Source: Pseudomonadota bacterium | GTDB lineage: Bacteria; Pseudomonadota; Gammaproteobacteria; Burkholderiales; Gallionellaceae | Length of the DNA: 64,000 nucleotides | Reading direction: 5' to 3' | Assembly: GCA_021782365.1 (NCBI GenBank) | Contig: JAJXVB010000011.1 | Coordinates: 1 to 64,000 of the forward strand | Shown here: positions 23,941 to 33,480 of the stretch, one piece after another | Numbering within the stretch: position 1 is the stretch's first letter | How the letters are laid out: each line of letters opens with the position of its first letter | Program-made: the position numbers and the translations under genes | The notes under the pieces: generated by a model | What the model saw: the letters and a program-made list of their open reading frames with translations, nothing else | Databases searched by the model: none | What the model was told of the DNA's origin: nothing

Positions 23941-23982
23941 ATAACCCTTGCGGGTTATATGTGTTTCCCTAAGTGGGTATGG
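23941..23982 (+). promoter_or_regulatory. Sulfur-operon motif, copy B (tusA-dsrE2)
   Basis: ATAACCC (23941-23947) and GGGTTAT (23952-23958) form a perfect 7-base inverted repeat with a 4-base spacer, the most symmetric copy in the window. GTGGGTATGG follows 14 bases later (23973-23982). The motif lies about 110 bases before the tusA start. Confidence 0.65.
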
Positions 23983-28701: not shown

Positions 28702-29571
28702 TTATTGTCTCGACAGGCGGTCCAGGTAGCGCGCACGAAATAGCAGGCGCGGATGAAGCGGGTCGTCGGCAAAGCCGCTTCTGTCGTGCAGTACGTTGTT
28801 GCATAGCAAACCCTGGCCTGCCTCGAGCTTAACGGTGTGGATGTGGGGCGTATCCGATGCCAGAAGGTTTTCCAGCGCCGATACGGCGGTTCGTGTCGCA
28901 TCGTCATCCTTCCATTCTATGCTGCGGGTGCGCGCCGTATAGCGCATGCATAGCGCCCCCTGGTCGACAAAGAATACGGGGCCGGACTGTGCAGCGCGGG
29001 CAATGCCCGCTTCATCCGTGCGGGCGGGAATGGTCATTGCGTCATCGCAGGAGAGCGCGCGTATGTGTTCCGGGTCGAGATCCCTCAACATCAGATAGAC
29101 GATCTCGTGATCCATCACGCGGTTGATTCCACCATCACGGGCAGGTGACACGCAATGCAGCACCATCGCGCGTATTCGTCTATCCTCCGTGTTGTAGTAC
29201 CCGTCGGTATGCCACTTGATCGCACGGTCTGTGTAGGGAATGTAGGATTGCCTAACGCCCTCGTTTTCGGTTACGGTGATGCGGGATATGCCCTGTTCGC
29301 CGGCCAGCCAGTTGGCATCGAGGCGCTTTAGGCCGAGCTGGAATCCTAGCTGCTGCAGTCCCGACTCATCGATTTCAGCGTTCGAGGCATAAAGCGCCAT
29401 GTTGCTTCTGTTGCAGCGCTCGAGCAACGCACGGCGTTCGGATCCGGTCAAAGCCAGTGGATTCCTGACCTCGATTAGCAGCTCCGATGTGTCCGAAATC
29501 GCATGGAAAAGCTTATGCTCGCGCCAGGATTTGTACGCGTCGTTGTCTGCAAGATCAAACGGATTGCTCAT
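28702..29571 (-). CDS. TauD/TfdA-like Fe(II)/2-oxoglutarate dioxygenase
   Basis: Likely non-haem iron oxygenase of 289 residues. The iron triad is visible as HTD in AIKWHTDGYYN (about 137-139) and a distal His in LLCNNVLHDRSGF (about 266), followed by RLLFRARYL, where the Arg would hold 2-oxoglutarate. Its N-terminal part reads like the clavaminate-synthase branch. Family members cleave sulfonates such as taurine or hydroxylate other substrates. It is the last gene of the six-gene operon divergent from dsrA and overlaps the upstream gene by four bases, so a link to sulfur metabolism is suggested; the substrate is unknown. Confidence 0.8.
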   Translation of the reverse strand: MSNPFDLADNDAYKSWREHKLFHAISDTSELLIEVRNPLALTGSERRALLERCNRSNMALYASNAEIDESGLQQLGFQLGLKRLDANWLAGEQGISRITVTENEGVRQSYIPYTDRAIKWHTDGYYNTEDRRIRAMVLHCVSPARDGGINRVMDHEIVYLMLRDLDPEHIRALSCDDAMTIPARTDEAGIARAAQSGPVFFVDQGALCMRYTARTRSIEWKDDDATRTAVSALENLLASDTPHIHTVKLEAGQGLLCNNVLHDRSGFADDPLHPRLLFRARYLDRLSRQ

Positions 29572-30176
29572 GCTTCCTTTGGCGTGGTGAGCCTCTTTCT
29601 TGCGGGGCGCGCCTTTGCTGGCTTTGCATGGAGCAGATCCTTGAAGTTGCCTTCCAGCATGTCGATCGCTTCAGGAGCTTCGATGCTGATGATCTGGTCT
29701 ATGATCCAGCCGCTGTCCTTCTCGCCCATGATCTGGTTCATGCAATAGGCCAGATAGCGCAGGAAGGCATATTCCGGCCCATTTTCGGTGTAATCGAATT
29801 CCGCATATTCGCCTGCGCGTTCATTGAGCGCATCGATGAACTTCTGCTTGCATACGCCAAACTCGCGTTCCATCAGGCGGCTTTGGTTTTCTGCATAAGT
29901 CGCACCCACATGGTTGGCAAGCGCGCTGGTGAAGGTAACGCGATCATCTTCACTGAATTGCCGGTAGGCGAGGCGGTCTGCGACCAGTATCAGGAAGACC
30001 AGAAATTCGCGCAGAAAGGAAAAATATTGCGGCCCGATCTCGATGTCGAACTTGGCCTTTCGGGTGTTCTTCAGTGCGTTTTCGGCGATCCTCGATATGT
30101 TGAAGGCGACCGCCCCGGCAAGCTCCGCCGGGCTGTGCTCGCGATCCGCCTTGAACCATTTGCTCTTGATGCGCAT
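29568..30176 (-). CDS. Unknown helical protein of the dsr-divergent operon (202 aa)
   Basis: Soluble, largely helical protein of 202 residues with a hydrophobic helix at about 53-70 (YFSFLREFLVFLILVADRLA), one Cys in EFGVCKQKF and one in YLAYCMNQIMG, and a Lys/Arg/Pro-rich C-terminal tail. No domain is recognised. Its stop overlaps the TauD-like start by four bases and the tandem TusA gene ends six bases upstream, so all are probably one transcript. It may be a structural or regulatory component of the sulfur module. Confidence 0.6.
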   Translation of the reverse strand: MRIKSKWFKADREHSPAELAGAVAFNISRIAENALKNTRKAKFDIEIGPQYFSFLREFLVFLILVADRLAYRQFSEDDRVTFTSALANHVGATYAENQSRLMEREFGVCKQKFIDALNERAGEYAEFDYTENGPEYAFLRYLAYCMNQIMGEKDSGWIIDQIISIEAPEAIDMLEGNFKDLLHAKPAKARPARKRLTTPKEA

Positions 30177-30182
30177 GCGGGA

Positions 30183-30668
30183 TCAGATCCTTTGCAGGAA
30201 GAAAGCATAGACGTCGGCGGCGATCTCCGAGGTGTCCAGTATCTTCACGTTTGTGGCTGCAGCCCAGTCGACGATGTCCGAGCGTATGCCGGGGCAGTTG
30301 CTGATCAGTTTCAGCACTTCTTCCTTGGACATGCCGTTCAGAAGCTTCTTCGCTTCGACGATGGGGCCGGGGCAGACGACGTTGCGGATGTCGAGCACGA
30401 CGTTTGCCTTGACGGTTTCGCCCGTGCCTCTCCTGACGAAATAGGCCGTTCCGCCGCTCGCGACCGGCTCGGTTCTCAGCACCTGGTTTCCGGTTTGCTC
30501 AGACCAGGCAAAGAGATCGTCGCTGGTGCCGGGGCAGTCCGACATCAGCATCAGGATTTGCTCGTGCTGCAAATCGTTGATGATGCGTTTGACGCCGAGC
30601 AGCGGTGCGGGGCAGGAGAGCCCGCGCATATCCAGGGTGACATTGGTTTGCAAATTTTGATGGCTCAT
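30183..30668 (-). CDS. Tandem TusA-domain sulfurtransferase
   Basis: 161 residues made of two TusA folds. The first has GLSCPAPLLG (Cys19), the second NVVCPGPIVE (Cys99), both matching the CPxP active site. At the same distance in each domain the usual DP loop is DCPG (Cys45) and NCPG (Cys125), adding a second Cys to each domain. Such a fusion could hold or pass two sulfur atoms. It lies between the Cys-less DsrC paralogue and the unknown 202-residue protein. This gene is distinct from the single-domain tusA at 24068. Confidence 0.85.
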   Translation of the reverse strand: MSHQNLQTNVTLDMRGLSCPAPLLGVKRIINDLQHEQILMLMSDCPGTSDDLFAWSEQTGNQVLRTEPVASGGTAYFVRRGTGETVKANVVLDIRNVVCPGPIVEAKKLLNGMSKEEVLKLISNCPGIRSDIVDWAAATNVKILDTSEIAADVYAFFLQRI

Positions 30669-30703
30669 GTTCGGTGTCCTCGGTTTGCAGATAGGGTGAC
30701 GAC

Positions 30704-31033
30704 TTAATAACCGCCTTTGCCATATGGCTGTGGAAGACCTGCGACCTTTGCTGCCTGCTTGGCGGGACCTGTGGGAAACAGGTCGTACAGCGCTTTGCTG
30801 TCGGCTTCAGGCCAGAATTCATTCACGCCCTTCAGCATGTTGCGGAAGTTGGGTGTTGCGCCGTGCTCGCGATACTGATCGCGCATGTAATTGATGACCT
30901 CCCAGTGCTTGGGAGTCAGCTCTATGCCTTCCGCAGCGGCGATCACGTTGACCGCTTCTTCGCTGAAATCAGCTTCAAGCAGATAACCGTCTGCGTCAGT
31001 TTCAAGTTCGACTCCTGCTACGATGTATCCCAT
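30704..31033 (-). CDS. DsrC/TusE-family paralogue lacking both redox cysteines
   Basis: 109 residues with the DsrC fold signature (ELTPKHWEVINYMRDQYREHG, then ALYDLFPTGPAKQAAKVAGL). The flexible C-terminal arm ends PQPYGKGGY. Alignment with the canonical DsrC at 35674 puts Ala95 and Lys106 in place of the two arm cysteines, and the protein has no Cys at all. It cannot carry the trisulfide that DsrC presents to DsrAB. Cys-less DsrC relatives have been described as possible regulators (RspA-type). It sits in the operon divergent from dsrA, between the Cas6-like and tandem TusA genes. Confidence 0.88.
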   Translation of the reverse strand: MGYIVAGVELETDADGYLLEADFSEEAVNVIAAAEGIELTPKHWEVINYMRDQYREHGATPNFRNMLKGVNEFWPEADSKALYDLFPTGPAKQAAKVAGLPQPYGKGGY

Positions 31034-31076
31034 TGCTTCTCTCCTTGTTTATAGTAGTAAAAAATCCAAGAGGGTA

Positions 31077-31673
31077 TCACTCGAGGTCGGTGATCACCTT
31101 ATAGGGTATGAAAATGCCGCAGCCATAGCGGCGATCGGTGCCTAGTCCTTCATATTGCAAACGCAGGGAATCCTCATGCTTTAGATCGTGAATCACGAGG
31201 CTGTAGCCTTGTATCGTCCTGTCCTTGTGAACAAGGCTGTTTTTCATGCCGCAAAGCAGATTTCCAGCGATGCCGAGCTCCGCAAGTCTTGCCGATACGT
31301 CCTCGAGAAATGCCACCTCGTCCTTGTCGCTTGCGACAAGATGGGCATGCAGCGTCGAGTGGGGCTGTATCTTGCGCAGCTTGCCGCTTCCAAGATGGAG
31401 CGCAGCTCCACCGATTTCAAGGTGCTTGTTTGCGAGCTGGCCAAAATTGTCAGCCGTCGATAGGCTTAGCCGCACCACCAGCTTGCTGCGCTTTGCAAGC
31501 AGCATGCCCGCTTCGCTAACGGATGTGCGCAGGGGCACGACACCGGCATGCGGATCGTCGGCCAGCATGGGCGCATGATGCACCAGCGCATCCCATAGCG
31601 CAAACTGATAAACTGGGGGTATGATGTCACCACTGACATCGAATACCGCTTCTGTCATCTCGGCGATGCTCAT
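31077..31673 (-). CDS. Orphan Cas6/Cmx6-like RAMP protein
   Basis: 198 residues. The pattern resembles the Cmx6 branch of Cas6: an opening strand with GDIIPPVYQFALWDAL, then SKLVVRLSL, a LEIGGAALHLGSGKLRKI strand pair, a TLHAHLVA strand, and the C-terminal Gly-rich loop GLGTDRRYGCGIFIPYK (176-192), the hallmark of RAMP RNA-binding proteins. The His expected after the first IP in Cmx6, from memory, is replaced (IPPVYQ), so RNA cleavage may be lost. No CRISPR array or other cas gene is present in the window. It overlaps the upstream small gene by one base in a sulfur operon. Confidence 0.65.
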   Translation of the reverse strand: MSIAEMTEAVFDVSGDIIPPVYQFALWDALVHHAPMLADDPHAGVVPLRTSVSEAGMLLAKRSKLVVRLSLSTADNFGQLANKHLEIGGAALHLGSGKLRKIQPHSTLHAHLVASDKDEVAFLEDVSARLAELGIAGNLLCGMKNSLVHKDRTIQGYSLVIHDLKHEDSLRLQYEGLGTDRRYGCGIFIPYKVITDLE

Positions 31674-31888
31674 CAGGCCTGCCCTTGGACATCAGCCCAT
31701 TCGTTCATGAGTTTCGCCCACTGTTTCGCCGTTTGCGGGTCGATGTCGAATATCGTGAAGCGCTTGGCCTCCCGTATGCGGATGCGCATCATGCTCATGC
31801 CGCCTTCGACATGGTCGATCTGCTGAAGCTCTATTTCCTGGTTCCCCAAGGGAACTTTGAATTTTGCTAATTCTCTAATTTGCGCCAT
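31673..31888 (-). CDS. Small hypothetical protein (71 aa), first gene of the dsr-divergent operon
   Basis: 71-residue soluble protein starting MAQIRELAKFKVPLGNQEIE and forming an apparent beta-sheet plus helix (MSMMRIRIREAKRFTIFDID, then QTAKQWAKLMNEWADVQ). ATG at 31888 follows TGGAAA; an in-frame ATG at 31924 is also possible. It shares one base with the Cas6-like gene, so the two are coupled. Family not recognised. It is the promoter-proximal gene of the minus-strand operon that begins 91 bases from the shared motif before dsrA. Confidence 0.6.
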   Translation of the reverse strand: MAQIRELAKFKVPLGNQEIELQQIDHVEGGMSMMRIRIREAKRFTIFDIDPQTAKQWAKLMNEWADVQGQA

Positions 31889-31978: not shown

Positions 31979-32019
31979 AACCCGTTAGGGTTATAGCTGA
32001 TAGCCGCAATGGGTGATGG
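31979..32019 (+). promoter_or_regulatory. Sulfur-operon motif, copy C (dsrA/divergent operon)
   Basis: AACCC (31979-31983) and GGGTT (31988-31992) form a 5-base inverted repeat with a 4-base spacer, read on to GGGTTAT. After 14 bases comes ATGGGTGATGG (32009-32019). GATAGCCGC between the blocks recurs in the petA leader (50708-50718 region). It lies in the only gap between two divergent sulfur operons. Confidence 0.65.
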
Positions 32020-32184: not shown

Positions 32185-33480
32185 ATGGCAAAGAAACTAT
32201 ATGACACTCCTCGTCTCGATCAGCTTGAGTCGGGTCCCTGGCCCAGCTTTGTGACCGGTATCAAGGAGCTGGCAAAGAACAACGATATGGCCGTCGATCT
32301 CCTGGGGCAGCTTGAAGCTTCCTATGAGACCAAGAAGGGTTACTGGAAGGGCGGCACGGTTGGCGTATTCGGTTATGGCGGCGGCGTGATCCCCCGTTTC
32401 ACCGAGCTGAAGGATGAGAATGGTGAGGCAAAGTACAAGGATGCGGCCGAATTTCATACGCTGCGCGTGATGCCTCCTGCTGGCATGCACTATGACACGG
32501 ATATTCTGCGCAAGTTCTGCGATATCTGGGAAAAACACGGTTCGGGCCTCATCGCTTTCCACGGACAGTCGGGCGACATCATGTTCCAGGGTGCGACGAC
32601 CGAGAATGTTCAGCCTGCGTTCGATGAAATCAACGAGCTGGGCTTCGATCTGGGTGGTGCGGGTCCTGCAGTGCGCACTTCGATGTCCTGCGTAGGCGCC
32701 GCTCGCTGCGAGCAGTCCTGCTACGATGAGGCTAAGGCGCATCGCGCAATCATCAATACCTTCCTCGATGACATCCACCGTCCTTCCCTTCCCTATAAGT
32801 TCAAGTTCAAATTCTCCGGCTGCCCTAACGACTGCATGAACTCCGTTCAACGCTCGGATATGGCTGTGATCGGAACCTGGCGCGACAACATGCGCACGGA
32901 CGAGGCGCTGGCCAAGAAGTGGTTTGCGAAGCATGGCATGGATGAGTTGGTCAACGACGTGGTTGCGCATTGCCCGACCAGGACTTTCCAGGTCAAGGAG
33001 CTCTCCAAGATCAAGAGCGGCGAGCACATCACCAGCGTTGCGGTGAGCGATACGCACGGCGTCGAGATCAATAATCAGGATTGCGTGCGCTGCATGCACT
33101 GCATCAACGTGATGACGGGTGCTCTGGCTCCTGGCATGGACAAGGGTGCGACCATTCTGGTGGGCGGCAAGAGCCATCTCAAGATCGGCGGCCTGATGGG
33201 CACCGTAGTGATCCCGTTCATGAAGCTGGACAGCGATGAAGCGGTCGAGAAGCTGGTTGATTTCGCTCAGCGCACGATCGATTTCTTCGCCGAAAACGCG
33301 CTGGAGCACGAGCGCACCGGCGAGATGATCGAGCGCATCGGCTTGGCGAATTTCCTCGACGCGATGGAGATCGACGTCGATCCTTCGATGGTGAGTGCGC
33401 CGCGCATGAATCCTTATGTCCGCACCGATGGCTGGGACGAGGAAGTTGCCAAGATCAATGCTAAAAAACAAGCTGCCTGA
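32185..33480 (+). CDS. dsrA: Reverse-type dissimilatory sulfite reductase alpha subunit DsrA
   Basis: Catalytic alpha subunit of siroheme sulfite reductase, here oxidising DsrC-bound sulfur to sulfite. 431 residues. The siroheme-coupled [4Fe-4S] motif is CVGAARC (Cys169, Cys175) and CPNDC (Cys213, Cys217). The inserted ferredoxin domain has Cys300, 303 and 306 in DCVRCMHCINVM. Oxidative direction is inferred from the presence of dsrEFH and dsrL in the cluster. dsrB follows after 12 bases. GAAAGGAAA supplies the ribosome site. Confidence 0.98.
   Translation: MAKKLYDTPRLDQLESGPWPSFVTGIKELAKNNDMAVDLLGQLEASYETKKGYWKGGTVGVFGYGGGVIPRFTELKDENGEAKYKDAAEFHTLRVMPPAGMHYDTDILRKFCDIWEKHGSGLIAFHGQSGDIMFQGATTENVQPAFDEINELGFDLGGAGPAVRTSMSCVGAARCEQSCYDEAKAHRAIINTFLDDIHRPSLPYKFKFKFSGCPNDCMNSVQRSDMAVIGTWRDNMRTDEALAKKWFAKHGMDELVNDVVAHCPTRTFQVKELSKIKSGEHITSVAVSDTHGVEINNQDCVRCMHCINVMTGALAPGMDKGATILVGGKSHLKIGGLMGTVVIPFMKLDSDEAVEKLVDFAQRTIDFFAENALEHERTGEMIERIGLANFLDAMEIDVDPSMVSAPRMNPYVRTDGWDEEVAKINAKKQAA

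Follow-up and report, generated by a model that had tools for sequence, protein, structure and literature searches.

What is a protein of the Cas6/Cmx6 family, known from CRISPR immunity, doing back to back with dsrA, the gene that opens a cluster of the reverse dissimilatory sulfite reductase (rDsr) pathway? The question is raised by a 64,000-nt stretch of DNA (hereafter "the window"; JAJXVB010000011.1, positions 1-64,000, assembly GCA_021782365.1, Gallionellaceae; genome G000). Six genes lie there head-to-tail on the minus strand (28702-31888), overlapping by 1 and 4 bases or separated by 43, 35 and 6 bases, and 296 bases separate them from dsrA, which starts on the plus strand at 32185. They encode a DUF6967 protein, the Cas6 protein, a cysteine-less DsrC-family paralogue (DsrC'), a tandem TusA, a 202-residue helical protein (h202) and a TauD-like oxygenase (DsrQ). 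Open frames and Pfam/NCBIfam matches confirm the positions, divergent orientation and tight spacing given for these genes in an earlier note on this DNA, as well as the upstream region common to the operon and dsrA. We propose, at about even odds (probability near 0.5), that the Cas6/Cmx6 protein left CRISPR immunity and became a dedicated rDsr accessory in Gammaproteobacteria, acting by the mechanism outlined below. The part of this proposal that concerns dedication to rDsr and freedom from CRISPR is rated far higher than the mechanism.

Co-occurrence of Cas6 with dsrA

The earlier note had staked its idea on co-conservation with rDsr, and this expectation survives. We sampled 369 genomes evenly from the class, counting a cas6_cmx6 match as Cas6 and a best TIGR02064 match with E < 1e-30 as dsrA. 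The 98 genomes with only weaker dsrA matches, which also arise in control genomes, were not counted as dsrA carriers. Cas6 was found in 118 genomes and dsrA in 119; 111 genomes have both, 7 Cas6 only, 8 dsrA only and 243 neither. Thirteen of the 15 discordant genomes are discordant near contig edges. Among those with Cas6 only, the contig ends adjoining dsrQ in four (G067, G093, G127, G186) and adjoining cas6 in G317, and G318 has a cut, divergent dsrA at the contig edge; in G299 such an explanation is not apparent. Among those with dsrA only, the contig of seven extends for less than 2 kb ahead of dsrA, where G123 shows dsrQ together with a small gene, c3, and G211 is the sole apparent real exception.

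The linkage is physical as well. The two genes share a contig in 84 of the 111 genomes, lie less than 6 kb apart in 82 and are divergent in all 82. In two small genomes (G109 and G325, loci L177 and L179; 1.4-1.5 Mb) cas6 is distant from dsr, with no dsrQ or DsrC' called beside it. Among 41 relatives of the window's genome, the same 16 carry both Cas6 and dsrA and 25 carry neither at the same dsrA cut-off, 10 of these 25 belonging to the window's own genus. Cas6 marks rDsr oxidizers, including reduced genomes of 1.0-1.5 Mb. In one relative, G379, the dsr locus is present twice (L153 and L156), and a separate cas6 operon diverges from each.

Independence from CRISPR

A genome-wide scan gave at least 582 relatives, of which the best 80 loci were kept ("named loci"). 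Their taxon labels are gammaproteobacterial for 71 and Proteobacteria only for 7; one has no taxon and one is labelled Halobacteria archaeon. The last (L048, JABDRC010000157.1) carries a dsr and cas6 locus of gammaproteobacterial type and is probably mislabelled or from a mixed bin.

No cas gene stands beside the window's cas6, the flanks being dsr, tusA, dsrE, FadL and MCP genes. No recurring cas cluster is present among the neighbours in the 80 named loci and the relatives, where single unnamed neighbours are not all identified. CRISPR arrays were found neither in the window nor in the 80 loci (3-20 kb each) by a search that recovered its positive control. Cas1 is missing from the window's genome (93.7% complete) and from 34 of the 60 Cas6-bearing genomes tested (of 118). 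Cas6 gives a single match in 117 of the 118 carriers, and in the remaining genome the match is in two pieces. In phylogeny, the sulfur-associated Cas6 proteins form a clade apart from five CRISPR copies (SH-aLRT 100). Plasmid relatives are annotated as type I-MYXAN Cas6/Cmx6. Since most sampled sulfur-oxidizing Gammaproteobacteria have Cas6 back to back with dsrA and no CRISPR system attached to it, these data suggest that an immunity protein was recruited for energy metabolism.

Features of the Cas6 protein

The Cas6/Cmx6 assignment made in the earlier note is sound: the protein scores 140.3 bits against TIGR02807 (cas6_cmx6; cut-off 98.85 bits) and 172.1 bits against PF09559 (Cas6; cut-off 26.7 bits), and its predicted fold is the Cas6 RAMP fold. 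The glycine-rich loop near the C-terminus is present, with Gly176, Gly178, Gly184, Gly186 and Phe188 invariant in six sulfur and five CRISPR copies. Arg68 and the loop are invariant in sulfur copies, as in CRISPR Cas6. Arg62 and Lys192 are also invariant in sulfur copies and occur in one and none of the five CRISPR copies, respectively. Most gammaproteobacterial sulfur copies are about 230 aa long; they are extended at the N-terminus (MYWxED) and carry a GNGW insert.

A histidine right after the first strand is a described, putatively catalytic Cas6 motif, the constancy of which was disputed by a reviewer, according to passages of PMC3150331. It is kept in all 81 other gammaproteobacterial sulfur copies and in 5/5 CRISPR copies, and in only 2 of the 16 relatives' copies. 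The window protein has Tyr22 in its place. With this helix-1 histidine replaced by tyrosine, Cas6 of the window's genus would more likely bind RNA and leave it uncut.

Locus organization and partner proteins

The features of the locus are collected in Table 1.

Table 1. Genes and palindromes of the cas6-dsrA locus (window positions)
Feature	Positions	Strand	Remarks
DUF6967 protein, 71 aa (operon gene 1)	31673..31888	-	PF22295 109.2 bits
Cas6/Cmx6-family RAMP protein, 198 aa	31077..31673	-	1-base overlap with DUF6967 gene; Tyr22; G-rich loop EGLGTDRRYGCGIFIP
DsrC' (Cys-less DsrC-family paralogue, C-terminus GKGGY)	30704..31033	-	43-base gap from cas6; PF04358 114.6 bits
Two-domain (tandem) TusA with CPAP and CPGP motifs	30183..30668	-	35-base gap; PF01206, two stretches
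h202, 202-aa all-helical protein	29568..30176	-	6-base gap; no Pfam/NCBIfam family
TauD/TfdA-like Fe(II)/2-oxoglutarate oxygenase (DsrQ)	28702..29571	-	4-base overlap; PF02668 55 bits; His121, Asp123, His262 kept
Operator-like palindrome P2', AACCCGTTAGGGTTAT	31979..31994	+	Aligned with 15 relatives' loci; with P1', sole exact match in the genome to the joint pattern
Operator-like palindrome P1', ATAGCCGCAATGGGTGAT	32000..32017	+	Aligned with 15 relatives' loci
dsrA, divergent neighbour, opens dsrABEFHC	32185..33480	+	TIGR02064 498.9 bits; gene order from open frames

The six-gene operon recurs, identical or nearly so, divergent from dsrA at 16 loci in 15 relatives, so the arrangement is not due to chance. 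All six genes are called in the order DUF6967, cas6, DsrC', tandem TusA, h202, dsrQ at 11 of these 16 loci; DUF6967 is called at 15 and DsrC' at all 16.

DsrC' ends in RKGGY or GKGGY in 80/80 entries (55 in named loci; two are the window) and in 16/16 relatives' loci, and the canonical DsrC ends in KPTGC(V/I) in 41/41. The window's DsrC' contains no cysteine at all, as had been noted before, and so lacks the C-terminal cysteine of sulfur-carrying DsrC/TusE proteins. Such cysteine-less members of the family were reportedly called RspA by Venceslau and co-workers in 2014. The tandem TusA and the helical protein h202, both noticed earlier, hold as well, the latter matching no Pfam or NCBIfam family. 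The CPxP motif is present in both TusA domains in 15/15 proteins (window and relatives). Homologues of h202 (27-38% identity) occur in 28 of the 80 named loci; its AlphaFold2 model (pLDDT 87.4) consists of six helices, and structure comparison found no safe structural relative. No RNA-modifying family was found among the partner proteins scanned.

The TauD-like oxygenase was correctly identified in the earlier note; as a novelty it does not stand, a TauD-like gene beside dsr being already published as dsrQ and proposed, speculatively, to release sulfite from sulfonates (in passages of PMC7596348). The gene is divergent from the dsr cluster in the window and in its relatives, and the HxD...H motif is kept in 68/68 aligned module members.

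Beyond the window's relatives, the module varies. Neighbours were clustered from the open frames of 111 loci (the 80 named loci and 31 from the genome set; not all independent, see below), giving cas6 in 110, TauD in 90, c3 (64 aa) in 82, c4 (67 aa) in 63, a PKHD-type oxygenase in 62 and h202 in 28. In the named loci alone, many of which are cut by contig ends, TauD is found in 66 and c3 in 59, and DsrC' is the next gene after cas6 in 55. The genes usually stand in the order dsrA < > dsrQ, c3, cas6, DsrC', c4, and the usual partners of Cas6 are DsrQ, c3 or DUF6967, and the KGGY-type DsrC'. Downstream of cas6, loci L039-L118 show recurring further 2-oxoglutarate oxygenases (PKHD type, 2OG-FeII_Oxy_3 and 2OG-FeII_Oxy_5) and the small conserved proteins c4, c13 and c19.

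The idea of the six genes as one unit everywhere is not supported. Of the loci examined, only those of the window's genus have the tandem TusA within the operon; DUF6967 is rare (7/369 class genomes), forming DUF6967-cas6-h202 in G014 and DUF6967-cas6, followed by a DUF6866 gene on the opposite strand, in G061. In two genomes of another class (G495 and G580; L180 and L181), dsrA faces dsrQ-c3 without Cas6. These variants suggest a stepwise build-up of the module around the dsrA promoter, and from the last of them c3 is more likely a partner of DsrQ than of Cas6.

The dsrA-dsrQ intergenic region

Across 49 dsrA-dsrQ intergenic regions of gammaproteobacterial loci, 45 of them not near-copies, there recurs an array of the form AGTCTAGG, 27 bp, AMCCCYACCNATGGGGTG, 35 bp, TAYCYCN4GRGRTA, with almost fixed spacing where present (e.g. 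L043 8260-9052) and N4 spacers in both palindromes. Both palindromes occur in order in 35 of the 49 regions, from which the motif was itself drawn, and both exceed the thresholds in 0/1000 shuffled regions. We read the reverse complement of AGTCTA as a putative dsrA -10 box. The inner palindrome would then sit at about -42, a class II activator position, and its outer partner at about -76.

The window does not match this array (P1 11/17, P2 9/12). Its genus has an operator version of its own, ACCCRTTRGGGTTAT and ATAgCCGCtAmGGGTrAT, the joint pattern of which has one exact match in the genome, at the dsr site. The three two-mismatch matches are the dsr site on the other strand, C21:102135 and window position 23944. 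At the last, a second operator pair (23941-23980, ATAACCCTTGCGGGTTAT ... GTTTCCCTAAGTGGGTAT) lies about 100 bases before tusA (start 24068); next in line are a DsrE-family gene (24324) and a pair of FadL-type genes (24860, 26183). This second pair points to what is probably a small sulfur regulon under a common operator.

The idea that the palindromes are domesticated Cas6 repeat hairpins, acting as RNA, was rejected on two grounds. The true I-MYXAN repeats by cyanobacterial cas6 have another hairpin (ATGCC-N4-GGCGT), and the sites include T-G as well as C-A combinations, which is the pattern of a DNA operator (39 sites; position 3: TA 21, CG 8, TG 6, CA 4; position 5: CG 27, CA 7, TG 3, TA 2). 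The dsrQ leaders show no convincing RNA structure (41 leaders, mean z -0.46, 15% below -2). An Rfam scan gave no match in six loci; in the window it gave only a ribosomal S15 leader elsewhere (RF00114, 5921-6034).

Possible roles of the Cas6 module

By the mechanism that we propose, the G-rich loop of Cas6 would still serve to bind an RNA hairpin, which the protein would also cut in most lineages, namely those that keep the helix-1 histidine. Family knowledge, the conserved histidine and the loop argue for such an action on RNA. DsrC', itself no carrier of sulfur, may monitor the sulfur relay or the state of DsrAB; it would be coupled to Cas6, and the two could together tune dsr expression or Dsr activity. 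The position of cas6, its absence from some rDsr lineages and the non-catalytic DsrC' point to a regulatory role. For DsrC, parts of PMC5944118 and PMC7787665 cite binding to DNA upstream of dsr and a putative function in the control of transcription; this fits the regulatory idea for DsrC' and is not proof of it. The regulatory module imagined in the earlier note is accordingly possible and unproven. In its fuller form, an exapted RNA-protein module in which Cas6 binds or cuts host RNA, the KGGY-type DsrC senses the relay and DsrQ supplies an oxygen signal, it is tentative, somewhat short of an even chance.

Several observations weigh against our proposal. The Fisher test for the Cas6/dsrA association (p = 7e-75) ignores kinship, and the 111 clustered loci include contigs fetched twice, so that those counts and the 80 DsrC' entries, two of which are the window, are not all independent. 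In twelve class genomes a single Cas6 goes with two dsrA matches above the cut-off, and G406 likewise combines one Cas6 with dsrA at two sites; the doubling in G379 is therefore not a rule, and the copy numbers of the two genes are not tied. In a phylum sample of 219 genomes, dsrA (E 1e-30 or better) is found in 46 and Cas6 only in the window's genome, leaving Cas6 in none of the 45 dsrA genomes outside the class. This last count is weaker than it appears: in these 45, DsrF-like matches occur in 19 of 20 tested, by coordinates close to dsrA in three only (G495, G580, G446), and c3 occurs in two, so most may not be rDsr-type oxidizers. Cas6 is absent from these three other-class genomes with linked dsrEFH, and hence is not needed for rDsr chemistry. 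The histidine is lost in 15 of 17 Cas6 copies of the window's genus and its order, and DsrC' does not adjoin Cas6 in every lineage (G014, G061). Finally, the conserved palindromes, with both T-G and C-A combinations, behave as DNA operators and not as a Cas6 RNA target, and no such target was found, the dsrA leaders being weakly structured (41 leaders, mean z -0.85, 15% below -2).

Four other explanations were considered. The Cas6 fold may have been reused as a scaffold or chaperone for protein contacts, for instance in DsrAB maturation or the handling of the DsrC relay, with RNA irrelevant. The histidine invariant in the 81 other sulfur copies, and the G-rich loop and Arg68 shared with CRISPR Cas6, are RNA-type features under selection, and make this rival unlikely, though it is the strongest of the four. 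We regard as more doubtful still an RNA modification system, in which Cas6 would bring RNA to DsrQ and the sulfur carriers for hydroxylation or thiolation. In its favour, one operon combines a protein of RNA-binding fold, an oxygenase whose metal-binding motif is complete and, in the window's genus, a tandem TusA with both motifs intact; yet DsrC' has no C-terminal cysteine for sulfur relay, DsrQ and c3 stand beside dsr without Cas6, Cas6 occurs with no DsrQ, DsrC' or TusA called nearby (G109, G325; G014, G061), and the scanned partners include no RNA-modifying family. For RNA thiolation in particular, an idea of the earlier note, we found no positive evidence. Improbable, too, is an operon devoted to sulfonate breakdown by DsrQ and so to the supply of sulfite to the pathway, as the published speculation on DsrQ (PMC7596348, in part) would allow, with Cas6 and DsrC' as passengers: Cas6 follows dsrA too strictly for a passenger and persists without dsrQ nearby. 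A remnant of a degraded CRISPR-Cas locus, for which the family name and the annotation of the plasmid relatives might speak, is contradicted by the single match per genome, the fixed neighbourhood, the separate clade and the lack of arrays.

A dedicated rDsr accessory derived from Cas6 remains our preferred reading, and it has practical consequences. Annotation is likely to call this protein a type I-MYXAN CRISPR protein, since it passes that model's cut-off; the gene instead marks rDsr sulfur oxidizers, and a lone cas6_cmx6 match is no sign of CRISPR immunity. The module is a candidate regulator of dsr genes and gives a context to dsrQ, whose role had been guessed. It may be a case of a Cas protein working in central energy metabolism; on the fuller form of the regulatory reading, lithotrophic energy metabolism would be controlled at the RNA level by a domesticated Cas protein.

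Comparison with known systems

The novelty here lies in the setting of a familiar protein family; dsrQ was already known. In the parts of the open-licence literature covered, no account was found of a Cas6-rDsr link, of an adjoining KGGY-type DsrC or of the c3 and DUF6967 partners. Gene maps of dsr and sox in mangrove metagenome-assembled genomes name cas6 in the legend of Figure 3B only, with no link, function or distribution discussed (PMC10989796). From the legend text, this is apparently the same gene as ours, which lowers the claim that it had gone unseen there and leaves the odds of the mechanism unchanged. In the passages available from other open-licence papers naming cas6, dsr and dsrC, the mention of cas6 concerns CRISPR systems or lists.

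In kind and place the window's dsrQ corresponds to the published gene, which is TauD-like and runs divergently from dsrA (Lenk et al. 2012, cited by PMC7596348); the 2-oxoglutarate oxygenase motif is kept. PMC7596348 does not contain the word cas6, and dsrQ is placed here within a larger module in Gammaproteobacteria. DsrC' shares the fold family of DsrC/TusE and differs by the KGGY end that replaces the C-terminal cysteine in every copy beside Cas6. The operon's TusA has the common CPxP sulfur-binding motif and differs in carrying two domains per chain, both with the motif. The nearest known settings of Cas6/Cmx6 are type I-MYXAN (I-B like) CRISPR-Cas systems and type I-B CRISPR transposons (8fcj, 8fcu). 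In contrast to these, the sulfur-associated Cas6 has neither cas genes nor an array, forms its own clade, and is distinguished by the MYWxED extension, the GNGW insert, Arg62 and Lys192 and, in the window's genus, Tyr22.

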